This document shows, piece by piece, positions 8,136-37,851 of a DNA stretch of 42,931 bases. The notes below the pieces were generated by a model. The model made no database searches, was not told the DNA's origin, and was given only the letters and a program-made list of their open reading frames with translations. Position 1 is the stretch's first letter. Every line of letters starts with the position of its first letter. The stretch is from Rikenella microfusus. GTDB taxonomy: Bacteria > Bacteroidota > Bacteroidia > Bacteroidales > DYQK01. The stretch spans positions 2,135 through 45,065 of the forward strand of contig DYQK01000010.1 in the NCBI GenBank assembly GCA_020719385.1. The letters are read 5' to 3'. The position numbers and the translations under genes are program-made.

Positions 8136-11100
8136 ATGAAACGAATCCATTTATTATTGATTCTGCTGCTCGCAATTTGTTGCGGTGCAGTTGCTCATCG
8201 TTACTTCAAGGACAACATTTCTCTTTCTCCACCAAAAACTAAATTTATGTTTCCCTTTGACAAAAATGACAAATACCCTAAGGAATGGGCAAAAGTCGAT
8301 TCTTTGGAAAAAGCAGGACTTCCCAAATCGGCTCTTGAGGTTGTGGAAAATATTTATTCCTCCGCAAAAAAGGACAATAATCACGACCAAATTATCAAAG
8401 CGTTTATTTTTCGATTAAAATATAAAAATATTATCGAGGAAAATGCTTTCGAGAGACTTTTGCAAGAGTTAAAAACGGAATTGCAAAATACGCCGCCGCC
8501 ACATAATGCAATGATGCACACAATGTTAGCCGAAATGTATTGGTGGTATTATGAAAATAATCGATGGAAATTCTCGCAACGGACTAACACTACCGACAAA
8601 CTCTCTGACGATATTAAAACTTGGACTTTGGACCAACTTGTCTCGCAAGTGATTTTTCATTACAGAAAATCTCTCGAAAACTCACAGAAAGCACAGGAAA
8701 CTAAACTTTCTGTCTATGAGGAAACTATTTGGAAAGGCTCTTTGCCGCAAAGTTTAACCCCAACTTTGTACGACTTTTTGGCAATGAGAGCAGTAAATTT
8801 TTTCGACAATTCCGAAGTTTCTCTCACAAAACCTGCCGATTATTTTGAGTTGAAAGAAGATTTTTACTTCGCCGACGCAGAAAAATTTGCGAAAACTTCG
8901 ATTCAAAGCAAAGACACCCTTTCGCTGCATTTTCACGGAATAAAAGTGTTGCAAGAATGGTTAAATTTTCGACTAACAAACACCTCGCAACCCGAAGCCT
9001 TGATAAATGCGGATTTTCAGCGTTTACATTTCGTTTATAGTTTTTCCGTTCACACCGAAAAAGATTCTTTGTATCTCGCTGCGTTGCAAAATTTAGAGAA
9101 AAAAAATCTTTCTGTGCCTTATTCGTCTTATATTTCGTTTCAAATTGCGAGATTTTATTTCGACCAAAGCACAAAATATGATGCTTTTAACAAAGAAACA
9201 GAAAAATATAAAGATTATCGCAAAAAAGCGTTCGAGATTTGTAAAAATATTATCGCAAACTCAAAAGATTCTATCGCAATTCATTACGCAAAAAATTGTT
9301 TGCCGTCAATAACGACGCGAAACCTTGAATTTCAAGGCGAAAACGCAGTTATTCCGAATGCAAAATTTCAAATGAGAATTTCGTACAGAAATGTTGAGAA
9401 AATTTATTTTCAAATTTCTTCGATTTCAAAAGAGAAATATCTCAATTTGGCTGAAAAACATTACGGCAATGCGTTAGTTTCTGAATTGAAAAAAATTGCA
9501 ATTCCCGTTTACACAGAAAATTATGACGTACCCAAAGACGCAGATTTTAATTATCACAGCATTAAAATTTTGGGAAAACCACTGCAAAACGGTTATTATC
9601 TCGTTTTGATGGCAGATAACAAAGAATTTTCAGGCGACAAAAATCTCGTTTCTTACGATTTTCTCAATGTTACGAATCTTTCTTACACGCAACGAAGTTT
9701 GTCTAACGGAGATATTGAGGGTCAAGTTTTTCACCGCCAAACAGGCGAGACGTTGTCAGATGTTAAGATTCTTGCTTTTATGGAGGAATATTCTTACGTT
9801 ACGCGAAAATATGTTCGAAAAGAAGTGGGAAAATATACGTCTGATAAAAATGGAATGTTCAAAGTTTCTGCTACTTCGAATTATCGCACTTTGTTTTTCG
9901 AATTGTACAAAGAGAAAGATGTGTTTTATGGAAGTTCACATTATCTCTACAAACAAACAGAAAATCGAGAAAAAGAATATAAAACGACATTTTTCACCGA
10001 CAGAGGCATTTATCGTCCGGGACAAACGGTTTATTTTAAAGGTTTAGTTCTAAAAACAGGCAACGATTCTTCAGAAATTGTGAAAAATTATAAACAAACG
10101 GTTCTTCTCTACGATGCAAATTGGCAAGAACAAGGTAAAGTTGAGGTAACATCGAATGAATTTGGTACTTTCGCAGGGAATTTTGTCCTTCCAACGGGTT
10201 TATTGAACGGTCAATTTTGTGTTTATACCGCAACTGGAAGCAAACATTTCTCGGTTGAAGAGTATAAACGACCAACATTCGAAGTTTCGATGCTTCCGTT
10301 TAAGGAAAATTATTTGTTAAACAACGTTGTAAAAGTCAAGGGGAAAGCACAAATGTATTCAGGGGCAATGTTAACTGACGCAAAAGTGCAGTTTCGTATT
10401 ACGAGAGCGCCGATTTGGTGTGGTTGGAGGTATTATTCCTTCGCTCCGAGAGTTGTTGAGATGAAAAATGGCACGGTTCAGACGAATTCACAAGGAGAAT
10501 TTGAGGTAGAATTTCTTGCTATTCCTGATTTAACATTTGCCAAGAACAAAGATATGGCTTTTCGATATGAGATAAAAATCGATGTTACTGATTTGAACGG
10601 CGAAACTCAAAGCACTTCGAAGGCAATAACGGTTGGTTATCGGGCTTTGTCTCTCGGAATTCAATTGTCTGCGGAATGCGAGAAGGACTCAATATCGAAA
10701 GTTAATCTCATTACTCAAAATTTAAACGGCGAATTTCTTGCTTCAGAGGGAGAAATTAAGTTTTTTAAACTCAAATCACCGTCAAATTTGCCGTTAAAAA
10801 GTCAAATTTTTCAGCGAACGGATAAAAATTTGTTTACAAAAGAGGAATGGTACAAAGAATTTGCAGGTAACGAGTTTGATAACGAATCAAAATTCGAAAA
10901 TTGGAATCAAGAAACTGAAGTTTTTTCGAAAAAATTTAACACAAACAGCGAAAAACAACTCGATTTAACGGCGGCAAAAACTTGGGAAACAGGCGTTTAT
11001 TGTGCAGTGTTAACTGCCAAAGATGCTTTTGGAAATGATGTTGAAAATCGAAAATTCTTTGTTTTATTTTCGCGAAACGAGAAAACTTTGCCTTATCCGT

Positions 11101-14100
11101 CAATAAATTTTGCGATTCAGTTAACCGATGAGTGCGAGCCGACAGAAAAAGCGAAATTTTTAATCGGAAGTGCTGAAAATGTGCAGATAATTTATGAAAT
11201 TGAACATCAAAGAAAAGTTGTTTCGCGGGAAATTTTGAAATTAAACAACGAGCAACGTTTAATTGAAATTCCTATTGCGGAGAAACATCGCGGCAATTTG
11301 TCTGTTCATTTTACTTTTGTGCGAGATAATCGTTTTTATAAAAATGATTACACTGTTTTTGTTCCTTACACAAACAAAGAACTTGACATTGAATTTTCAA
11401 CTTTTCGAGATAAACTCCTGCCCGGCGAGAAAGAGAAATGGAATATAAAAATCAAAGGGAAAAAAGGCGAGAAAGCGTTTGCAGAATTTCTTGCCTCGAT
11501 GTACGATGCCTCGTTAGATGCTTTTGTGCGAAACTCTTGGAATATTGATGAATTTTTTGCGAGATATTATGCCAGTTTAGATTGGGAGACTTCAGTTTTT
11601 GGAACAGGAACGAGTACAAATTTGCGAGAAAATGTTGATGAATATTATTCTTGCCCGTCATTTTATCTTCCTACGTTTAATTGGTTTGGTTTTTCGTATT
11701 ATTCAGGCAGATATTATTACGCCACCGAAAGCCCAAGAATGCTTAAATCTCGCAAGAAAAACGGTGGACGAGACGATGAAAAAAGCAAAGCCGTTCGAGA
11801 AGAAGACGCAGAAATGGACGAAGTTGTCGTTACTGCACTTGGTGTAGCGAAAGAAAAAGCAAGCGATGATGCTCCGCCGCCTCCACCACCTCCGCCGCCG
11901 CCATCTTTTGGTGAAAAACCAGAAATTGATGGCAAAAAAGAAAAATCTGACGAAGTGAAAGTTCGGACTAACTTTAACGAAACAGCATTTTTTTATCCGC
12001 AACTTCGCACCGACAAAGAAGGAAATGTGGTTGTAGAATTCACAATTCCTGAAGCATTGACGAAATGGAAAATGATGGGTTACGCACATTCGCAAGATTT
12101 AAAATCGGGTTATATCGAAAAAACGCTCGTTACGCAAAAAGACTTGATGGTCATGCCAAACGCACCGAGATTCTTTCGCGAAAATGATTTTATGGAATTT
12201 CCTGTTAAAATTTCGAATATTTCGACAAAAGATTTGAAGGGAAAAGTTTCGCTCGAATTTTCAGATGCGATAACAACGAAAATTATCTCGAATATTTTTC
12301 AAAACGAGACAACAGAGAAAGATTTCGAGGTAAAAGCAGGGCAAAATTGCGTTGTTGTGTGGAAAATTAAAATTCCTGAAGGCGTTGGGGCAATCGATTA
12401 TAAAGTTGTTGCCAAAGCCGACAATTTTTCTGACGGCGAACAAAAAACGATTCCTGTGATGATAAATCGAATGTTGGTTACTGAATCGATGCCGCTTCCG
12501 ATTCGCAGCAAACAGACAAAAACGTTCGATTTTAAAAAGTTAAGCGAAAATAATTCGACAACATTGCGTCATCATAAATTGACTCTCGAATTTACGTCAA
12601 ATCCTGCGTGGTATGCGGTGCAGGCACTTCCGTATGTTATGGAATATCCGTATGAATGTGCTGAACAAACGTTTAGCCGCGTTTATGCGAATTCTTTAGC
12701 AACGCATATTGCGAATTCTACTCCGAAAATTGCGAAAGTTTTCGATTCGTGGAAAAATTTACCTGATTCGAAATCGTTATTGTCGAATTTAGAAAAAAAT
12801 CAAGAGTTAAAAACTGCGTTGTTGCAGGAAACGCCATGGGTTCTTGACGCACAAAACGAATCTGAACGCAAAAGAAACATTGGTTTACTCTTCGATTTGA
12901 ATAAAATGGGCAAAGAAATGAATTCTGCCATAATAAAATTGGATAAATTGCAATGTTCAAATGGTGGTTTTATGTGGTTCGATGGAATGCCTGACGACAA
13001 ATACATCACTCAACATATTGTAAACGGTTTTGGTCATCTGAAAAAATTAGGAATCAAGACTCTTTTTGATAATTCTCGTGTTGAAAAAATGGTTCGCAAA
13101 GCAATAGAATATCTTGATGAACGAATTGTTGATGAATATCGAGAGTTAAAAGATTATTGTACGCGTTACAAAGTCAGTCTTGATGATAATCATTTGAGTT
13201 ATTCTGCGATTTTGTATTTATATGGCAGAAGTTTTTACAAAGAAATTCGACTTCCAAGTGCAACAGACGAAGTTTCGAAGTATTATCTCGCACAAATGGA
13301 GAAATATTGGTTGACGCAAAGTCAATATATGCAAGGTTTAATTTCTTTAACCTTATTTCGCAACGACAAACAGGTAACTGCAAAGAAAGTTCTTGCTTCG
13401 TTGAAGGAAAAATCGATTCTTTCTGAAGAATTAGGAATGTATTGGAAAGAAAACGAAGGCGGTTTTTATTGGTATCAAGCACCGATAGAAACGCAAGCGT
13501 TGATGGTCGAAGCATTTAACGAAGTGAGTAACGACCAAGAATCTGTCGAAAATTTAAAAGTTTGGTTATTGAAAAATAAACAGACCACAAATTGGAAAAC
13601 AACTAAAGCAACCGTCGAAGCGGTTTATGCGTTATTATTGAAAGGTTTAGATTTACTTGCCAATGACGAATTAGTGAAAATCAAAGTCGGAAATCAAGAA
13701 ATTGACCCTCGCAAAATGGACGGCGTTCAAGTCGAAGCAGGCACAGGTTATTTTAAAACTTCGTGGAGCGGCACCGAGATAAAACCCGAAATGGGAAAAG
13801 TGACCGTTTCAAAAGCAACCGAAGGAGTCGCTTGGGGAGCAATTTATTGGCAATATTTCGAACAATTAGACAAAATCACGCCGCACTCAACACCGTTAAA
13901 GTTAACGAAAAAGTTGTACAAAGAGACAATGACTGACCGTGGTCCCGTTTTAGAAGCGTTAAGCAACGGAGCAATATTGAAAGTCGGCGACAAGGTAAAA
14001 GTGCGAATCGAATTGAGCGTTGACAGAGATATGGAATACGTACATTTGAAAGATATGCGTGCTTCGAGTTTCGAACCAATGAACGTAATTTCGGGCTACC

Positions 14101-14312
14101 GATATCAAGACGGTTTGGGTTATTACGAATCCACAAAAGATGCTTCGACAAATTTCTTTATTGGTTATTTGCGAAAAGGCACTTATGTTTTTGAATATCC
14201 ATTACGAGTAACGCACAAAGGCGATTTTTCCAACGGCATAACATCGATTCAATGTATGTACGCACCAGAATTCGGCTCACACAGCGAAGGAATACGCGTA
14301 AAAGTGGAATAA
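8136..14312 (+). CDS. Alpha-2-macroglobulin-like protein with thioester motif
   Basis: At 2058 residues this is the largest gene in the window. An N-terminal hydrophobic segment (HLLLILLLAICCG) serves as signal or anchor. It has no perfect lipobox. A helical region (about 40-390) precedes the macroglobulin domains. There is a carboxypeptidase-regulatory-like insert near 518-600 and a typical MG2 motif FTDRGIYRPGQTVYFKG near 620. The alpha-2-macroglobulin core (FFYPQLRTDKEGNVVVEF) lies near 1285, and the thioester motif CAEQ is at 1508-1511 in YPYECAEQTF. The thioester domain (GGFMWFDG) runs to about 1850, then a C-terminal receptor-binding-like part. The family traps proteases by bait-loop cleavage and covalent attachment, acting in envelope defence. 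Usually a transpeptidase (PbpC-type) gene is adjacent, and none is here. An odd segment at 1228-1256 combines DEVVVTALG with ten prolines. Confidence 0.92.
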   Translation: MKRIHLLLILLLAICCGAVAHRYFKDNISLSPPKTKFMFPFDKNDKYPKEWAKVDSLEKAGLPKSALEVVENIYSSAKKDNNHDQIIKAFIFRLKYKNIIEENAFERLLQELKTELQNTPPPHNAMMHTMLAEMYWWYYENNRWKFSQRTNTTDKLSDDIKTWTLDQLVSQVIFHYRKSLENSQKAQETKLSVYEETIWKGSLPQSLTPTLYDFLAMRAVNFFDNSEVSLTKPADYFELKEDFYFADAEKFAKTSIQSKDTLSLHFHGIKVLQEWLNFRLTNTSQPEALINADFQRLHFVYSFSVHTEKDSLYLAALQNLEKKNLSVPYSSYISFQIARFYFDQSTKYDAFNKETEKYKDYRKKAFEICKNIIANSKDSIAIHYAKNCLPSITTRNLEFQGENAVIPNAKFQMRISYRNVEKIYFQISSISKEKYLNLAEKHYGNALVSELKKIAIPVYTENYDVPKDADFNYHSIKILGKPLQNGYYLVLMADNKEFSGDKNLVSYDFLNVTNLSYTQRSLSNGDIEGQVFHRQTGETLSDVKILAFMEEYSYVTRKYVRKEVGKYTSDKNGMFKVSATSNYRTLFFELYKEKDVFYGSSHYLYKQTENREKEYKTTFFTDRGIYRPGQTVYFKGLVLKTGNDSSEIVKNYKQTVLLYDANWQEQGKVEVTSNEFGTFAGNFVLPTGLLNGQFCVYTATGSKHFSVEEYKRPTFEVSMLPFKENYLLNNVVKVKGKAQMYSGAMLTDAKVQFRITRAPIWCGWRYYSFAPRVVEMKNGTVQTNSQGEFEVEFLAIPDLTFAKNKDMAFRYEIKIDVTDLNGETQSTSKAITVGYRALSLGIQLSAECEKDSISKVNLITQNLNGEFLASEGEIKFFKLKSPSNLPLKSQIFQRTDKNLFTKEEWYKEFAGNEFDNESKFENWNQETEVFSKKFNTNSEKQLDLTAAKTWETGVYCAVLTAKDAFGNDVENRKFFVLFSRNEKTLPYPSINFAIQLTDECEPTEKAKFLIGSAENVQIIYEIEHQRKVVSREILKLNNEQRLIEIPIAEKHRGNLSVHFTFVRDNRFYKNDYTVFVPYTNKELDIEFSTFRDKLLPGEKEKWNIKIKGKKGEKAFAEFLASMYDASLDAFVRNSWNIDEFFARYYASLDWETSVFGTGTSTNLRENVDEYYSCPSFYLPTFNWFGFSYYSGRYYYATESPRMLKSRKKNGGRDDEKSKAVREEDAEMDEVVVTALGVAKEKASDDAPPPPPPPPPPSFGEKPEIDGKKEKSDEVKVRTNFNETAFFYPQLRTDKEGNVVVEFTIPEALTKWKMMGYAHSQDLKSGYIEKTLVTQKDLMVMPNAPRFFRENDFMEFPVKISNISTKDLKGKVSLEFSDAITTKIISNIFQNETTEKDFEVKAGQNCVVVWKIKIPEGVGAIDYKVVAKADNFSDGEQKTIPVMINRMLVTESMPLPIRSKQTKTFDFKKLSENNSTTLRHHKLTLEFTSNPAWYAVQALPYVMEYPYECAEQTFSRVYANSLATHIANSTPKIAKVFDSWKNLPDSKSLLSNLEKNQELKTALLQETPWVLDAQNESERKRNIGLLFDLNKMGKEMNSAIIKLDKLQCSNGGFMWFDGMPDDKYITQHIVNGFGHLKKLGIKTLFDNSRVEKMVRKAIEYLDERIVDEYRELKDYCTRYKVSLDDNHLSYSAILYLYGRSFYKEIRLPSATDEVSKYYLAQMEKYWLTQSQYMQGLISLTLFRNDKQVTAKKVLASLKEKSILSEELGMYWKENEGGFYWYQAPIETQALMVEAFNEVSNDQESVENLKVWLLKNKQTTNWKTTKATVEAVYALLLKGLDLLANDELVKIKVGNQEIDPRKMDGVQVEAGTGYFKTSWSGTEIKPEMGKVTVSKATEGVAWGAIYWQYFEQLDKITPHSTPLKLTKKLYKETMTDRGPVLEALSNGAILKVGDKVKVRIELSVDRDMEYVHLKDMRASSFEPMNVISGYRYQDGLGYYESTKDASTNFFIGYLRKGTYVFEYPLRVTHKGDFSNGITSIQCMYAPEFGSHSEGIRVKVE

Positions 14313-29157: not shown

Positions 29158-29195
29158 AAACTTTGTCAAGTGCCTTTCTCACTTTGACAAAGTTT
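29158..29195 (+). terminator. Hairpin after the DUF29 pair
   Basis: AAACTTTGTCAAGTG (29158-29172) pairs with CACTTTGACAAAGTTT (29180-29195) with a single bulged base and a 7-base loop. A weak T-rich stretch follows only after about 10 bases, so it may be an attenuator and not a full terminator before the giant secreted protein gene. Confidence 0.6.
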
Positions 29196-29237
29196 AAATT
29201 TACAATTTTTTATTCACTTTTTTTTAAAAACAAATTT

Positions 29238-32200
29238 ATGAGACAATTAAAATTTTTTTTATTATTTATTTCGCTACTTTTTTTTGCAAATCAAATTTTT
29301 TCGCAGCAGTTTAAATTCACTGAACGCGAGAAATATCTTGACGAGTTGAAAGAATTTTTTTCGCGAGTAAAAAATAATAAAATTGAAGATTTTTACAAAG
29401 ATTTCGCAAAATCTTGGGAAAGAGGCGAGTTTACGGAGGATGAGATGAATTTTATTTACAACGAATCGGTGCTTTTAGTGAATAAAAAAGCAATTCCGCT
29501 TCACTTGTATAATTATTTGATGGTAAAAACGTTGTTTAACAGGTCAGGACATTCTCCTTCGAGTTATACGCAGTGGCAAAATTATTTCACAAGAATTTTG
29601 CAAAATAACAAAATTTCATCGACAAAAATCAACGAATTTCTTGATTTTACTTGGAATTTGTTGAAGACGAATCTTTTGTATAAATCTCTTACGACTCGTT
29701 GGCGGGCAGGAAGTCAGCGTTATCGTTTCGAAAATTTTCATCAAGATTCGCTTCGTTTAGTTTTTGATGGACAAACCGATTTAATTTGTTATGCGTATCA
29801 CGACAGCACAATAGTTCACAACACAACGGGTGTTTATTATCCGCAGTTGATAAGATGGGTTGGCGAGGGTGGTCGCGTTACGTGGGAGAGAGTTGGGTTG
29901 GCGGAAAGCGAGGTTTATGCGGATTTGAAAAAATACGAAATCGAGATGACAAAATCGAGTTTTATGGCAAAAGAAGTGAGTTTTATGAATCAGAAATACT
30001 CGCGGAATTTGTCTTATGGTGAGTTAGAAGAAAAGGTTCAGTTTCGCGATACAATACAGAGAAAAGATGATTCGGAAGAGAAAAAGCAGGAACGAAGAGA
30101 ACGAGAAAATACTATGTCTGCGTATCCGAAGTTTAAGTCTTCAGAGAAAACGTTTTTTCTCAAAGATGTTTTTCCCAATATTGACTTCGAAGGTGGTTTT
30201 TCGATGCAGGGGAAAAAGTTTATCGGTATGGGCAACAAAGAGGCTGATGCTCGTTTGTGTATTCGGCGAGGTGTTGAACCGTTTATCATTGCCTCCTCGG
30301 CTTCGTTTACCTTTATTCAAGCCGATGTTGATGAACGAGGAAATTCTAAACAAAAAAAAGAAATTGAGAAGACTATCTCAAGTGTTACGAGTCAGAATGT
30401 AAAAATTACTCTGTATTTGCGTTTAAATGGTCGTTTAGATTCGATTTATCACCCCAATTTAGATTTTCAATATGTTGAGACTAAAAATATTGAGACAAAA
30501 GTTGTTTCGCGAAGAATCATTATGCAACGCGTGAGCGAGGGCGGCGAAAATATTCCGCCATTTTTTAATTCGTTTCACAATTTGGATATGGATTTTGAAC
30601 AGTTGATTTGGAATGTTGACTCTTCAACGGTTACTTTTAAACCCTTGTCTGGAAGTTCGAAAAAAACTGCCAATTTTACTTCTATTGACTATTTTGATAC
30701 TGAATTGTATGATAAATTGCGTTATCTCGGAACGAAACATCCGATGGTGATGATGAAAAATTATGCAGAAGACAGAGTCAAGCAAAGTTTTGGAAAGAAA
30801 AATCCGACCAAAGACGAGATTACTGCGGCTGTTGAGAAAGAGAAATTTTCTCCTGAAGATTTGGCAAAAGGAATCCGGCGAAATCTGGACGAGGTGAAAC
30901 GTTTATTGATAGAATATGCTCAATTTGGGTTCGTTTTTTACGACAGAAAAGCAAATTTAGTCTCGTTAAATAAGCGTCTCTTTGATTTTTTGCGAATGCA
31001 CGGCGGAACACGAGATTTCGACCGTCTGACTGTTGTTTCAGATGCAGAATTTGATAAAAAAAATGCAGACCTGCGTCTCGACAATTTAGATTTAACCATT
31101 TATGGCGTTGAAAGTGTTGTACTAAGTGAAGCACGAGGGACAATTTTTTTCCCAAAAGAAGATACAGTCGCTAATAAAAAAGTCAAAACTAAAAGTTCAA
31201 AAGATAAAGTTCAGCGAATCGTCACGGGACAAAAACGAGTTTTAATGAAAAAAAATCGAGATTTGTATTTCGATGGACTCCTTCGAGTCGGAGCAACAGA
31301 CTTTTTTGGAAAAGATTTTGTGTTTAAATATGACAGTTTTCGCATCGATTTGAATAGTGTTGACTCGGTTTTGTTTTGCATCCCTGCACGAAAAATCCGC
31401 GCAGACTCAATTCTTGCAGACCGCTACAGACTTGTGCCTGTGCTTTCGACATTGGAAAAAGTGAAGGGAAAACTACAAATTGACCATCCACTCAATAAAG
31501 CAGGAAAAGATAGTACAAACTTGAAAATCAAAGAGTTAAAAGCACTTGTAGACTCAAAAGACAAAACAAAAAAGATAAATTTAAAAACTTTTCCCATTTT
31601 TAAAAACGAAGTGAAATCAAGAGTGTTTTACGACCGTTATCCGATGGTGTTTCAAACACAAAAACGCGAAAATTTTATCTTTCACGACCTGGAAAAAACC
31701 AAATATTATAAACGAGACAGTTTTTATTTCGAAACAAATCCGTTTGTGTTAAATGGTTTAGATAGTTTGGGAAAAGTTGGGCGAGACAGCATTAAAATTG
31801 CAGGACGTTTCGTCTCAAGTATATTCCCCGAATTTGACGAATATTTGTCGGTGCAAGGTGATAAATCGCTCGGTTTTACTCACGATTTAAAAACATCAAC
31901 ACCACTTTATGATGGAAAAGGACATTTTAAAGGAAAACTAAAACTCTCACGAGTCGGACTGCAAGGAACAGGTGAGGTTCAATATTTAGTTTCCACTACG
32001 GAGGCCGATAAGAATCGTTTTTACTTCGCCCCAGACTCAATGAACGCATTCTCGCACAATTTCAGAATCGCAAAACAAACCTCAGGAACAGAATTCCCAT
32101 CGTTAAATACCGTCAAAGGTGATACCGCATGGGTGCATTGGGAACCCAAACGCGATATTTTGCTCGCCCGAAATAGTATGTTACCGCCCAATTGGGACAA

Positions 32201-34325
32201 AAAGAAAATGCCTGCCAAAAAAGCAAATCCTTTGCCCTTTGAAATGTTCGACCAAAAAGCAAAAATGAACGGAATAGTGATGTTAAAACCTGAAGGTTTA
32301 ACAGGAGACGGAATAATGGACTTTGTCGGAGCAGAAATGGAATCGGAAAAATATGATTACAAAGCAAATACTTTTGATTCAGACATTGCCTCGTTTAAAA
32401 TTGTGGTTGACACTTCGTTTTCTATTGATAGAGTTGCTGCACATATCAATTTTATCGACTCCATTGGAAGTTTTAAAGCCATTGACACAATTACTGATGT
32501 TCAATTTAAACATAATTTTTACAAATGTTATATGGACAGATTTACTTGGTTGATGAAAAAAGAAGTAATTGGAATTGTTAAACCTTTGACTGCCTCGGCA
32601 AAAAAAGTGTTTAACGAAACTGATATTTTTAAAGTGAACGAAGAAGAGTTAGGCGGCGTAAAATTTATCTCTACGCACCCAAATCAAAACGAGTTAACGT
32701 TTAAATCTGATACCGCACTCTTCGATATTCGCAAAAAAAACATCACGGCATATAATGTTAAACTGATTCACTCTGCCGATGCGTTGATCTTCCCAAGCAC
32801 TGCGGTAGCAATTTATAAAAATGCACAAATGCAGACTCTCGCTGACTGCCGAATTGTCACTGAACCCGAACACAAATTCCACTTAATTTACAATTCTACG
32901 GTCAATATTTCAGGAAGACTTCTTTATACCGCAACAGGAGATTATAATTACGTTACCGTGAGAGATAGTATTGAGAAAGTACACTTTTCGAGTGTTCGTC
33001 CTGACGACAATTTGCAAACCGTTGCTATTGCAAAGATTTCCCCGCAAGATAAATTTACTTTGGGACCAATATTTTCTTTCATCGGAGAAATAAAATTGGA
33101 ATCGAAGCAGAAACACTTAAAATTTACAGGATTCTCGCGAATGGAGCATCCGTGTAAAAAACTTGATACGCTGCAATTTGCCTTCTCTGCGTCAATAAAC
33201 CCCGACACAATTTTTATTCCCGTAATGCACGACACAGCAACATTTACGCAGAAAGAGAAAGTAGTAAAAGTGAATGTCAGCAAAGATATGAAAAATGAAA
33301 AACTTTTTGCAAGTTTATTCCTTACGCAAGACTCCTCGCACATTTACAGCACTTTTCTGACGCGAATGAAAAATTACAGCGACATTGACCTCTTCGATGC
33401 GAAAGGATTTTTGTATTACGACAGCATATCAGATGCGTATATTGTCTCTCGCAAAGAGAAAATTTTAAATCCAACATTTCCAACAACAAAAATTACGAGA
33501 GAGAAAGAAAATTTCAAACGCGGACCAACGTTTAATTATCTAAAACTCAGTCGAAAAAGTTGTGAATTATACGGCGAAGGAATCTTTGATTTGGGTGCAG
33601 ACCTGGGACAAGTAAGTTTAATGCCTGTCGGAAATGTGAAACATTATTTAGACAAAGACATTATTGAGTTTGACCTGATGCTTGGAGTCGATTTTCCTTT
33701 GCCCGATAAGTGTTTTGACCTTGTCTACGAACGCGTTGCAAATGCAACTGGAAATCCTCAACCATTTTTGCCCGAAGAGACAAGTTTTAAACAGTCAATG
33801 ATAGAGTTAGTCGATACGGTGCAAACGAATCGAATGTTATCTGATTTGACTGTTCCCAATAGAGCAAGAGTGTTCCCCGAAATAATGCAACATAAATTTT
33901 TGTTCGGAAATGTTAAACTAAAATGGAACACAAAAACGCATTCTTATCGCACTTTTGACCGTTTTGCGATGGTCGGAATCGGAAATCGAGGTTTATACAA
34001 ATATATCAACGGCTACATTGAGTTAATAAAAAAACGTAGCGGCGAGACACTATATATATATCTCGAACCAAGCGAAAGAGAATGGTTTTTCTTTGTTTAT
34101 TCAAAAGGACAGATGAAAACTTATTCGTCAAATGAGGAATACAATTCTGTTATCTCGAAGACGAAGGCGAAGAATCGAAAAATTGTTGACAAAAATCGTC
34201 CTGATGTTCCTTATTCTTTCGATTTGAGTAACGAAAAAGCAAAAGAAACATTTTTGCGAAGTTTCAGAAATACAGACGAAGACGAGGAGGAAAAAGACAA
34301 AGAAGAGAAAGAAGATAAAGATTAA
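29238..34325 (+). CDS. Giant secreted protein of unknown function
   Basis: The product has 1695 residues. The start at 29238 gives a clean signal peptide (MRQLKFFLLFISLLFFANQIFSQ). The longer frame from 29163 reads through the hairpin and is rejected. Residues about 25-150 are helical and charged. A segment near 520-590 is helical with a winged-helix-like feel (PEDLAKGIRRNLDEVKRLLI). The rest is strand-rich, with recurring blocks such as GKGHFKGKLKLSRVGLQG and MNGIVMLKPEGLTGDGIMDF that recall stacked beta-jellyroll or OstA/AsmA-like repeats. The last 20 residues are almost all Asp, Glu and Lys. No catalytic motif or membrane barrel end is visible. Similar very large secreted proteins occur in Bacteroidota. 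An envelope lipid or assembly role is only a guess. Confidence 0.78.
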   Translation: MRQLKFFLLFISLLFFANQIFSQQFKFTEREKYLDELKEFFSRVKNNKIEDFYKDFAKSWERGEFTEDEMNFIYNESVLLVNKKAIPLHLYNYLMVKTLFNRSGHSPSSYTQWQNYFTRILQNNKISSTKINEFLDFTWNLLKTNLLYKSLTTRWRAGSQRYRFENFHQDSLRLVFDGQTDLICYAYHDSTIVHNTTGVYYPQLIRWVGEGGRVTWERVGLAESEVYADLKKYEIEMTKSSFMAKEVSFMNQKYSRNLSYGELEEKVQFRDTIQRKDDSEEKKQERRERENTMSAYPKFKSSEKTFFLKDVFPNIDFEGGFSMQGKKFIGMGNKEADARLCIRRGVEPFIIASSASFTFIQADVDERGNSKQKKEIEKTISSVTSQNVKITLYLRLNGRLDSIYHPNLDFQYVETKNIETKVVSRRIIMQRVSEGGENIPPFFNSFHNLDMDFEQLIWNVDSSTVTFKPLSGSSKKTANFTSIDYFDTELYDKLRYLGTKHPMVMMKNYAEDRVKQSFGKKNPTKDEITAAVEKEKFSPEDLAKGIRRNLDEVKRLLIEYAQFGFVFYDRKANLVSLNKRLFDFLRMHGGTRDFDRLTVVSDAEFDKKNADLRLDNLDLTIYGVESVVLSEARGTIFFPKEDTVANKKVKTKSSKDKVQRIVTGQKRVLMKKNRDLYFDGLLRVGATDFFGKDFVFKYDSFRIDLNSVDSVLFCIPARKIRADSILADRYRLVPVLSTLEKVKGKLQIDHPLNKAGKDSTNLKIKELKALVDSKDKTKKINLKTFPIFKNEVKSRVFYDRYPMVFQTQKRENFIFHDLEKTKYYKRDSFYFETNPFVLNGLDSLGKVGRDSIKIAGRFVSSIFPEFDEYLSVQGDKSLGFTHDLKTSTPLYDGKGHFKGKLKLSRVGLQGTGEVQYLVSTTEADKNRFYFAPDSMNAFSHNFRIAKQTSGTEFPSLNTVKGDTAWVHWEPKRDILLARNSMLPPNWDKKKMPAKKANPLPFEMFDQKAKMNGIVMLKPEGLTGDGIMDFVGAEMESEKYDYKANTFDSDIASFKIVVDTSFSIDRVAAHINFIDSIGSFKAIDTITDVQFKHNFYKCYMDRFTWLMKKEVIGIVKPLTASAKKVFNETDIFKVNEEELGGVKFISTHPNQNELTFKSDTALFDIRKKNITAYNVKLIHSADALIFPSTAVAIYKNAQMQTLADCRIVTEPEHKFHLIYNSTVNISGRLLYTATGDYNYVTVRDSIEKVHFSSVRPDDNLQTVAIAKISPQDKFTLGPIFSFIGEIKLESKQKHLKFTGFSRMEHPCKKLDTLQFAFSASINPDTIFIPVMHDTATFTQKEKVVKVNVSKDMKNEKLFASLFLTQDSSHIYSTFLTRMKNYSDIDLFDAKGFLYYDSISDAYIVSRKEKILNPTFPTTKITREKENFKRGPTFNYLKLSRKSCELYGEGIFDLGADLGQVSLMPVGNVKHYLDKDIIEFDLMLGVDFPLPDKCFDLVYERVANATGNPQPFLPEETSFKQSMIELVDTVQTNRMLSDLTVPNRARVFPEIMQHKFLFGNVKLKWNTKTHSYRTFDRFAMVGIGNRGLYKYINGYIELIKKRSGETLYIYLEPSEREWFFFVYSKGQMKTYSSNEEYNSVISKTKAKNRKIVDKNRPDVPYSFDLSNEKAKETFLRSFRNTDEDEEEKDKEEKEDKD

Positions 34326-34575: not shown

Positions 34576-37500
34576 ATGACAAAAAAACTGATGTATTTGC
34601 TTGCATTTTTGGGGCTATTCAGTGTGCAGGCATACTCGCAACGGACAATTACAGGAGTTGTTACCGACGCCGGAGACGGGACAACAATCCCTGGGGTTGC
34701 CGTTCAAGTAAAAGGAACAACTATCGGTATTGTAACAGGTATCGATGGCGATTATTCCTTGAGCGTTCCCAATGACGCAACAATTTTGATTTTTAAGTAT
34801 GTTGGGAAGAAGACTCAGGAAGTTGAGATTGGTTCACAGACGAAAATTAATGTCGTTATGGAAGCCGAATCTCAAGAACTAGGTGCAACGGTTGTTACTG
34901 CTGTGGGCATCAAAAAAGATGAGAAAAAACTTGGTTACTCCGTAACTCAGGTTAATAGCGAGAATTTAACACAGGGACGCGACAAGAGTCTTGTTAACTC
35001 GCTTCAAGGGAAAGTGGCTGGTGTCAATATTACCTCTTCTTCGGGTGCGCCTGGTGCTTCTACGCGTGTTATTTTGCGAGGTTTTTCCTCATTGGGCGGC
35101 AGTAACCAACCTCTTTTCGTTGTTGATGGTGTACCTATTGACAACAGTTCTTCCGCAGACGGCGATATCAACGGTGGAGTCGATTACGGCAACCGTTCCA
35201 ACGACTTAAATCCTGACGATGTTGAGTCTGTTTCAGTTTTGAAAGGTGCTTCAGGAACTGCATTGTATGGTTCAAGAGCATCAAACGGTGTAATTATTAT
35301 CACGACGAAGAAAGGGAAATCCGCTTCCAACAAAGCAAAAGGAACGGATGTGATTTATTCAGGTTCAATGACTTTCGAAACGCCCTTACGACTTCCCGAA
35401 TTTCAAGGACGTTATGGACAAGGCATTTACGGCAACAAAGACCTTCGCGAAAACACCAGTTGGGGACCAATCTTTGACGGCAAATATCACGAGTGGGGAG
35501 CAATTGTTGACAACGCACAAAAAATCAAAAAATATGAGGATATACCAGATAACGTTAGAGATTTTTTTGAAATAGGAACAACATTTAACAATTCTGTTTC
35601 TATCGCAGACGGAACAGAAAAAATGAGTTATTATTTCTCTTACTCAAACGTTACCGCTGACGGTATTTTCCCTTATGACGTTGACAGTTATAAACGAAAT
35701 ACGGTTGCCCTTCGTGGGATGGTAAAATTGTCAAATAAACTTGTGAGTTCGGGTTCGTTAAATTATGTGAATAAACGTAATAAATTCGTTCCAACAGGTC
35801 AGGGAACAACGGTTTATAATCAAATTCTCCAAACACCTCGCGATATTGATTTGAAAGATTTAGAGGATTATAATTCAGAATTCAACAACGTTAACAATTA
35901 TTATTCTCCTTATACGAATAATCCTTACTTCATTTTAAAAGAATTTGGAAATGACAATGAGGAAAATCGTATTTATGGGAATATGCAATTTGAATACGAG
36001 TTCACAAAATGGTTCAAGGCAACTTGGCGAATGGGTGCTGACATATCCAATCGTTTCACAAAAGATTGGAAAGCCGTTGTTGCGACATCTGAAAACACAT
36101 CAAATGGTCAATACAATGATTATGCCAACAAAGGCGACGAGCCTGGCAGCGTTGCAATAACAAACGAAACTTCTACGGTTTACAACAGTGACTTCATTCT
36201 TGCGTTTAATAAAAAGTTTTTTAATGACGAATTAGAAGCAAGTTTAATTATCGGTCATAACGTGAACGCAACAAGTTTGAAACAGTCTTATTCCTCGATT
36301 TCAAAGTTGAGTGTTCCTGAATTTTATGTACTCTCAAATTCTCCAGATAAACCTTTTGTTTCTGAATATACTCAACAACACAGAATTGTGGGTTTGTTTA
36401 CAAACTTAGATTTATATTACAAAGGTTTCTTAAATTTGACGTTGAGTTTTCGTAATGACTGGTCGTCAACATTGCCTTATGAAGAAGAACGTACTTGGTA
36501 TTCACCTGGCAAATCCTTTTCTTACCCCGCAGCAAGTCTTGCGTTCATCTTTACTGACGCATTTCCTGTTTTGCAAAAATACATTAATTCAGGAAAAATT
36601 CGTGCAGGTGTTGGACAAACAGGTAATGACGCTAATCCTTATTTAGTGTATTCTGCTTTTGTTCGCGAGGCTTATGGAGATGGTTTTACCGCATTAAGTT
36701 TTCCATTATCTGTTGGTGGTATCAATGGTTTTCGTACTTCGACAAGAATTGGAAATGGAAGTTTACAACCTGAAATTACAACCGAATTTGAATTAGGTAC
36801 TGATTTGCGATTTTTCAACAACCGAATCGGCGTAGACCTCACTTGGTACACAAAGACCGTTACCGATATGATTTGGAATGCCACTTTGCCCTCTTCTACA
36901 GGTTATAGTTCGCAAACTTTAAACCTCGGCGAGATGACAAATTCAGGTATTGAGTTGCTTTTGACTTTTACTCCTGTTAAAAAAGAAGATTTTTCTTGGA
37001 CATTCTCAATAAACTTCTCGAATAACAAAAATAAATTAGTTAAACTGAAATCAGGAATGACTAACATTGACTTTAGTCCTGTCGGTGGAGCCAATAGCCC
37101 GAAATTCATGGCATACGAAGGCGAGGCATTGTATATTTTTGAAGGTGCTTCTGTCGTAAGAGATACGGTGAAGGACGCAAAAGGAAATCCCATTCTTGAT
37201 AAAAGTCGTGTTGTTGTAGATTCAAAAGGTATTCCTGTTGAAACAACAGAGAAATATCGTTATGGAAGTTCGCAGTATAATTTTATTGCTGGTTTAGCAA
37301 ATACTTTTGAGTTCAAAGGAATATCATTTGGATTTACTTTTGACTGGCGTCAAGGTGGTTTGATGTATTCAAGAACAGCAAGCATGTGTTATTTTTCAGG
37401 AATTGTTCCTCATACTCTTTATAATGACCGTCAGCCGTTTATTATTCCCAATTCAGTAGAAGACGTTGGAGGTATTGACCCAGCCACGGGCAAACACGTT

Positions 37501-37851
37501 CCTGTTTATGTTGAAAATACACATATCATTACTTCATCAACAGTTTACGATCACGCAGGAAAAGGTTATATGAATTTTGAAAAAGCTTTCGTTCTTGATA
37601 AATCCTTTGTCAAATTGCGAGAAATAAGTTTTGGTTACAAAGTTCCGCGAAAATATTTAGCAAATTTACCCGTTGGACAAATTGAAGTTGGTGTTGTCGG
37701 AAGAAATTTGTTCATCTGGACTCCCGAAGTAAATCGCTTCATCGACCCTGAGGCAACAACCTTTGGCAACGACAGCGGCGCAGACTACGGCGAATTCGGT
37801 GCAACTCCAAGCACAAGAAGTTTTGGTTTCAGTTTAAAATTCTCATTCTAA
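34576..37851 (+). CDS. SusC/RagA-family TonB-linked outer-membrane transporter
   Basis: The 1091-residue protein begins MTKKLMYLLAFLGLFSVQAYSQ, a signal peptide. A carboxypeptidase-regulatory-like domain follows (RTITGVVTDAGDGTTIPGVA to about 100). The SusC signature after it is the TonB-box-like VVTAVGIKKDEKKLGYSV. The plug domain includes GKVAGVNITSSSGAPGASTR and PLFVVDGVPIDN. A long 22-strand barrel ends FGFSLKFSF. SusC proteins import oligosaccharides or peptides captured by SusD, powered by TonB. The gene is followed by a SusD-like lipoprotein and two more lipoproteins but by no glycosidase, so a peptide or other non-glycan substrate is possible. Confidence 0.95.
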   Translation: MTKKLMYLLAFLGLFSVQAYSQRTITGVVTDAGDGTTIPGVAVQVKGTTIGIVTGIDGDYSLSVPNDATILIFKYVGKKTQEVEIGSQTKINVVMEAESQELGATVVTAVGIKKDEKKLGYSVTQVNSENLTQGRDKSLVNSLQGKVAGVNITSSSGAPGASTRVILRGFSSLGGSNQPLFVVDGVPIDNSSSADGDINGGVDYGNRSNDLNPDDVESVSVLKGASGTALYGSRASNGVIIITTKKGKSASNKAKGTDVIYSGSMTFETPLRLPEFQGRYGQGIYGNKDLRENTSWGPIFDGKYHEWGAIVDNAQKIKKYEDIPDNVRDFFEIGTTFNNSVSIADGTEKMSYYFSYSNVTADGIFPYDVDSYKRNTVALRGMVKLSNKLVSSGSLNYVNKRNKFVPTGQGTTVYNQILQTPRDIDLKDLEDYNSEFNNVNNYYSPYTNNPYFILKEFGNDNEENRIYGNMQFEYEFTKWFKATWRMGADISNRFTKDWKAVVATSENTSNGQYNDYANKGDEPGSVAITNETSTVYNSDFILAFNKKFFNDELEASLIIGHNVNATSLKQSYSSISKLSVPEFYVLSNSPDKPFVSEYTQQHRIVGLFTNLDLYYKGFLNLTLSFRNDWSSTLPYEEERTWYSPGKSFSYPAASLAFIFTDAFPVLQKYINSGKIRAGVGQTGNDANPYLVYSAFVREAYGDGFTALSFPLSVGGINGFRTSTRIGNGSLQPEITTEFELGTDLRFFNNRIGVDLTWYTKTVTDMIWNATLPSSTGYSSQTLNLGEMTNSGIELLLTFTPVKKEDFSWTFSINFSNNKNKLVKLKSGMTNIDFSPVGGANSPKFMAYEGEALYIFEGASVVRDTVKDAKGNPILDKSRVVVDSKGIPVETTEKYRYGSSQYNFIAGLANTFEFKGISFGFTFDWRQGGLMYSRTASMCYFSGIVPHTLYNDRQPFIIPNSVEDVGGIDPATGKHVPVYVENTHIITSSTVYDHAGKGYMNFEKAFVLDKSFVKLREISFGYKVPRKYLANLPVGQIEVGVVGRNLFIWTPEVNRFIDPEATTFGNDSGADYGEFGATPSTRSFGFSLKFSF

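Follow-up and report, generated by a model that had tools for sequence, protein, structure and literature searches.

Here we describe an alpha-2-macroglobulin (A2M) whose bait region carries a peptide closely resembling the TonB box of SusC receptors, encoded in a 42,931-nt stretch of Rikenella microfusus DNA (hereafter the window, meaning this whole stretch), and we place it within a pattern that recurs across the Bacteroidota. Pieces similar to TonB-dependent receptors sit in the baits and rarely elsewhere in these proteins, read in a single frame, correspond to a single part of the receptor and, in one genus, are conserved at the peptide level. Judging from this pattern, the reading that we rate highest, albeit at slightly under an even chance, is that the bait serves as an integrated decoy substrate imitating segments of the TonB machinery.

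The window protein belongs to the full-length subfamily of Bacteroidota A2Ms (subfamily A; Table 1). Its MG2, A2M and bMG10 matches all exceed the Pfam cut-offs, and the CxEQ thioester is present as CAEQ, with C, E and Q invariant or near-invariant among relatives. The best fold-search matches of the modelled part are the A2Ms of Salmonella and E. coli; the A2M fold, the bacterial MG10 domain and the CxEQ thioester are indeed common to the window A2M, ECAM (E. coli YfhM) and Salmonella A2M, from which it differs as a 2058-aa protein of a Bacteroidota subfamily. Relatives are present in 190 of the 295 genomes of the order. A signal-peptide-like N-terminus suggests a periplasmic location; lipoprotein anchoring of these A2Ms was rejected, with a lipobox in just one of the 39 N-termini scored. 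A pbpC gene neighbourhood has been noted for other bacterial A2Ms (PMC3328433); none was found among the checked neighbours at seven loci or among the scanned window genes. The window also holds an ORF of 1720 residues with a TTG start and without a Pfam match (29163-34325, + strand).

Table 1. Features of the A2M gene and of the SusC/RagA receptor gene in the window.
Feature	Residues	Window position	Strand	Basis
A2M family protein of 2058 aa, full-length (type A) subfamily of Bacteroidota		8136..14312	+	ORF, Pfam MG2/A2M/bMG10
MG2 domain	619-699	9990..10232	+	Pfam PF01835, E 2.6e-13
Bait region, predicted disordered, hypervariable	1150-1274	11583..11957	+	AlphaFold2, alignments
Bait peptide MDEVVVTALGVAKEK				A2M bait region
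SusC-like segment MDEVVVTALGVAKEKA	1227-1242	11814..11861	+	Sequence, PSSM, SusC profile
TonB box MDEVVV within the SusC-like segment		11814-11831	+	Likeness to Bt1763 VDEVVV
DDA and ten prolines, like the proline-rich linker of the own TonB (DEDAPPPPPPPPPPP)	1244-1256	11865..11903	+	Weak, low complexity
Alpha'NT anchor VRTNFNETAFFY	1276-1287	11961..11996	+	Profile alignment with A2ML1/A2M chains
A2M domain (PF00207)	1283-1373	11982..12254	+	Pfam
Thioester motif CAEQ	1508-1511	12657..12668	+	Sequence
Bacterial MG10 domain (bMG10)	1921-2045	13896..14270	+	Pfam PF17973, E 1.6e-31
SusC/RagA receptor, member of the family whose segment is mimicked; TonB-box region LGATVVTAVGIKKDEKKLGYSV		34576..37851	+	Domain search, sequence

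The bait region (model residues 246-370) was predicted by AlphaFold2 with pLDDT <50 and almost no secondary structure. In a profile of 19 relatives, the human counterparts of VRTNFNETAFFY are VRQYFPETWLW (A2ML1) and VRKYFPETWIW (A2M), with R1277 and F1280 opposite R732 and F735 of human A2M, residues of the alpha'NT region, which follows immediately behind the bait and threads a channel (PMC9352918). The arrangement of the human proteins, in which an R-x-x-F-x-E-T anchor lies right behind a disordered bait, thus recurs in the window A2M, and since the disordered stretch directly precedes this anchor, the SusC-like segment sits in the bait region. An earlier, sequence-only reading of the window had taken the low-complexity stretch for the bait loop and proposed a structure prediction of residues 1195-1280 as an exposed loop; the predicted disorder and the position before the anchor agree with it. 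The human A2M bait is a broad-spectrum cleavage sequence, and we know of no receptor-derived motif in it; likewise, we found no report, and know of none, that places TonB-system peptides in the baits of ECAM and Salmonella A2M, the relatives with solved structures.

Residues 1227-1256 read MDEVVVTALGVAKEKASDDAP10 (nt 11814-11903), that is, MDEVVVTALGVAKEKASDDA followed by ten prolines. The sequence-only reading had given DEVVVTALG at 1228-1236, AKEKASDD at 1238-1245 and the prolines at 1247-1256 (nt 11817-11903), exact save for the omission of V1237 and A1246; it had also likened the segment to the SusC at 34576-37851, which does carry the motif (VVTAVGIKKDEKK). A different SusC in this genome comes nearer (GEVVVTALGIAREKKALGY / EVVVTALGIAREKK); over 15 codons compared between the bait and an own-genome SusC, 11 specify the same residue, three of them by the identical codon. 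SusC/RagA receptors (TIGR04056, Bt1763) have in common with the window A2M a [VM]DEVVV TonB box and a subsequent TALGxxxEKK; unlike them, the A2M carries the peptide only, with no barrel and no complete plug, and neither a Plug nor a beta-barrel domain was found in it by Pfam or family-level libraries. The VDEVVV TonB box of Bt1763 (residues 81-86) is flexible by NMR, and its deletion or alanine replacement impaired growth on levan as severely as did loss of SusD (PMC7782687). The identification of the bait segment as a SusC-type TonB box is upheld by MDEVVV itself and by profile and PSSM scores, over a match that is short: its 8-residue TonB-box score of 21.6 is the third highest among 162 baits, whereas of 2152 stretches taken from elsewhere in these proteins none scores >14, and of shuffled baits 0.04% do; the SusC profile detects it at an i-E of 0.0038 (among 164 baits). 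Because family-level libraries give no significant match to the segment alone, the window case rests on this short segment together with the phylum-wide pattern.

The prolines that follow recall TonB itself. DDAP10 in the bait corresponds to DEDAP11 in the TonB of the same genome and may have been copied from its linker; the likeness of DDAPPPPPPPPPP to DEDAPPPPPPPPPPP is a low-complexity match, weak alone, and unlike TonB the window A2M has no TonB C-terminal domain (TonB_C, Pfam). Across the family, seven of the 164 baits contain at least five consecutive prolines, and no such run lies outside the baits in the 305,109 residues that these proteins comprise. The genome of L052 has PPPPP-V-[IM]-[DE]-[DE] at two places, its A2M bait and its TonB, with PPPPPPPPVIEEV in common; a Saprospiraceae bait (L045) reads EPPRTAEPP, as in a TonB linker. 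Shared words of six residues number 15 in baits vs 2.5 in shuffles, several of them proline-dominated. These observations are no more than suggestive of copying of the TonB proline-rich linker into some baits. A proline run alone was rejected as a diagnostic, since the Rikenella genome has at least seven prolines at six places, TonB being one; at the loci L351, L348, L356 and L362 (C34, C29, C39, C130), such runs were seen, besides TonB and the A2M, in three similar membrane-anchored proteins. Elsewhere, a 103-residue ORF with a lipoprotein-like signal (L376, G555:C33) has as its C-terminal part a proline-rich linker of TonB (EPPRTAEPPPPPPVIEEVPEEEIVEEIE) that its genome's TonB also carries; it is possibly another decoy or a truncated TonB.

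The sequence-only reading had also called for a search of A2M baits in the Bacteroidota, and among some 160 relatives receptor pieces do recur across the phylum. The sample comprised 132 loci and 40 further relatives, from whose alignments 164 baits were cut (two near-duplicates being omitted in some tests). PSSMs built from 27 SusC N-termini were run over 124 baits, 30 shuffles of each and other regions of the same proteins. The 22-residue TonB-box pattern exceeded the 99.9% level of the shuffles in 21 of the 124 baits, QGRVAGV in six, IRG in six and the signature in two, with 0.1 expected for each; similarly, 25 of 162 baits had an 8-residue TonB-box score >12, a level that shuffles reached in 0.12% and other regions in 0.23% of cases. 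When 146 baits were scanned against all Pfam and NCBIfam families, SusC (11 baits, best 4.2e-33) and Plug (four baits) were the only recurrent families with strong E-values. All 16 matches to the full-length SusC profile with i-E <0.05 fell on its TonB box and plug (positions 96-253 of 751), and no bait matched the barrel part at that level; matches of shuffled baits scatter over the model. In six-frame translations of bait DNA, all 21 TonB-box matches belonged to the coding frame; the five others, in which SusC DNA is open 17-55% of the time, had none, and random capture in any frame was rejected on this ground. The short IRG pattern is not decisive by itself because it gave three weak out-of-frame matches.

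The pieces vary in extent and order. Near-complete plugs occupy the baits of a Winogradskyella (L063), whose plug-like insert reaches just low confidence in the structure model, and of a Chitinophagales MAG (L082), and in three baits (L084, L098, L089) the order is reversed, GRVAGVQ standing ahead of the TonB box; by eye, the bait of L286 reads MDEVAV and then a CarboxypepD_reg-like stretch (DNMIEIKGESFQLNNVETNDGAYKFKNIPEEGDYSV). About 75-85% of baits hold no detectable receptor piece, and on a FastTree phylogeny of 161 A2Ms from which the bait was excluded, the 25 positives require 18 changes, a count that merges gain with loss on a tree with long branches. Five relatives labelled Cloacimonadota, Acidobacteriota or Thermoanaerobaculia (L034, L042, L051, L072, L107) fall among the Bacteroidota in this tree, through either mislabelled MAG contigs or transfer. 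The sequence-only reading would have abandoned the receptor analogy had close homologues lacked the motif and varied randomly: among the nearest homologues, at about 50-54% identity, the majority do lack it at that position, whereas family-wide it lies far above chance and within the genus tested it is conserved.

That genus is Algibacter, to which L098 belongs. Receptor pieces are kept in the genomes of nine of the ten species compared; in eight of these GRVAGVQ precedes the TonB box, the reverse of the SusC order, and several have a decaying TonB box and a retained GRVAGVQ. The ninth (L337, G546:C1) has in its bait a complete CarboxypepD_reg domain, a TonB box and the start of a plug instead. 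Across eight Algibacter species, pN/pS is 0.28 for the SusC-like pieces, 0.63 for the remaining bait and 0.24 for the structured flank; these values are supportive and not independent, because the piece boundaries were picked by SusC likeness after the alignment had been viewed.

We suggest that the A2M would act as an envelope protease trap, its disordered bait carrying a copy of a SusC TonB-box peptide and then a TonB-linker-like proline run. In both A2M subfamilies with such baits, the recruited pieces (CarboxypepD_reg, TonB box and plug, and apparently at times pieces of TonB) would represent flexible, periplasm-exposed parts of the cell's own transport machinery. A protease inside the envelope able to cut those parts would presumably cut the bait as well; cleavage would release the alpha'NT strand, the A2M would collapse and its thioester would bind the protease covalently. 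Because cutters of exposed transport parts would in this way trigger the trap, the bait may be an integrated decoy, and a decoy segment, one of the functions floated in the sequence-only reading, is what the sequence pattern most favours. Somewhat more tentatively, we propose that selection and turnover keep Bacteroidota baits similar to the TonB machinery, so that its attackers spring the trap. Integrated decoys are known from plant NLR immune receptors, where the attacker's target is likewise copied into a sensor; the likeness is one of analogy and not of homology.

Alternatively, the pieces could be neutral or nearly neutral remnants of a receptor-type module (CarboxypepD_reg, TonB box, plug) that once stood at the bait site and has been eroding and replaced as flexible filler, their descent from receptors merely reflecting that this gene family is the most abundant. 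Such modules exist: in subfamily B, A2Ms of about 1900 residues found with L196 as query, 18 of 20 bait regions have a CarboxypepD_reg domain immediately ahead of the A2M domain and six of 20 match Plug, several members combining CarboxypepD_reg with TonB box and plug. The SusC signature region is complete in L196, and other members have the general receptor form (e.g., IRGARGDATVYYIDG in L238, read by eye). This module may be one ancestral insertion, which would entail in-frame retention without repeated recruitment. In subfamily A, too, L337 holds a whole module, and SusC genes are very numerous. A single ancestral remnant fits subfamily B well; it fits less well the pieces of subfamily A, whose order is permuted, whose peptide is conserved though silent sites are saturated, and which include nothing of the barrel; the lineage-matched pieces of the TonB linker in some baits and the patchy distribution on the tree also speak against it. 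We regard this account as unlikely overall, though as the most probable of the alternatives. In a third A2M type (YfaS-like), 11 proteins examined had no plausible pieces, one TonB-box and one signature score slightly over threshold both lying outside the bait; these proteins are a limited control because their bait appears short.

A direct role in TonB coupling seems to us doubtful. Here the bait's TonB box would be a ligand of the TonB C-terminal domain, and through this contact TonB would tether, sense or mechanically load the A2M close to receptors. Such coupling would suit the TonB box being the commonest piece in baits, the resemblance of MDEVVV to an experimentally tested type and the flexibility shared by SusC TonB boxes and the bait (PMC7782687). 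However, GRVAGVQ, IRIRG and the signature, plug pieces unrelated to TonB binding, have been recruited and conserved too, GRVAGVQ outlasts the decaying box in several Algibacter species, and the copying of TonB's own proline linker into the bait would be left unexplained. The coupling of protease sensing to receptors through TonB, as the sequence-only reading had envisaged it, therefore finds no support in that form.

Diversification of the bait through recent gene conversion by susC copies, or recombination with them, is very improbable. Each genome offers many possible donors, and L337 resembles a wholesale capture; yet the bait pieces tested (window genome, G298) are no closer at silent sites to susC of their own genome than susC copies are to each other, and no close donor for the L337 insert was found in its own genome (G546), on which grounds recent copying was rejected. 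Scarcely credible, finally, is that a hydrophobic-acidic, low-complexity linker reads DEVVVTALG by accident: the bait is hypervariable and the segment short, but the shuffle, other-region, frame and position controls tell against chance, and the full stretch EVVVTALGVAKEKA of the window bait can be aligned with an own-genome SusC.

In the literature searched, TonB-box or plug sequences in A2M baits are nowhere described, a weak indication of novelty because most subscription journals lay outside the search; database annotation of such A2Ms as plug or CarboxypepD_reg proteins probably exists. Even on the neutral account, the insertion of a receptor module where the bait lies, in two subfamilies of A2M, seems to be undescribed there. 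If baits do imitate segments of the TonB system, their sequences would point both to the defended targets and to the kind of protease that attacks them. Baits could in that case be read as a record of the envelope proteins under proteolytic attack, and would offer a bacterial example of decoy-based defence inside a protease inhibitor.
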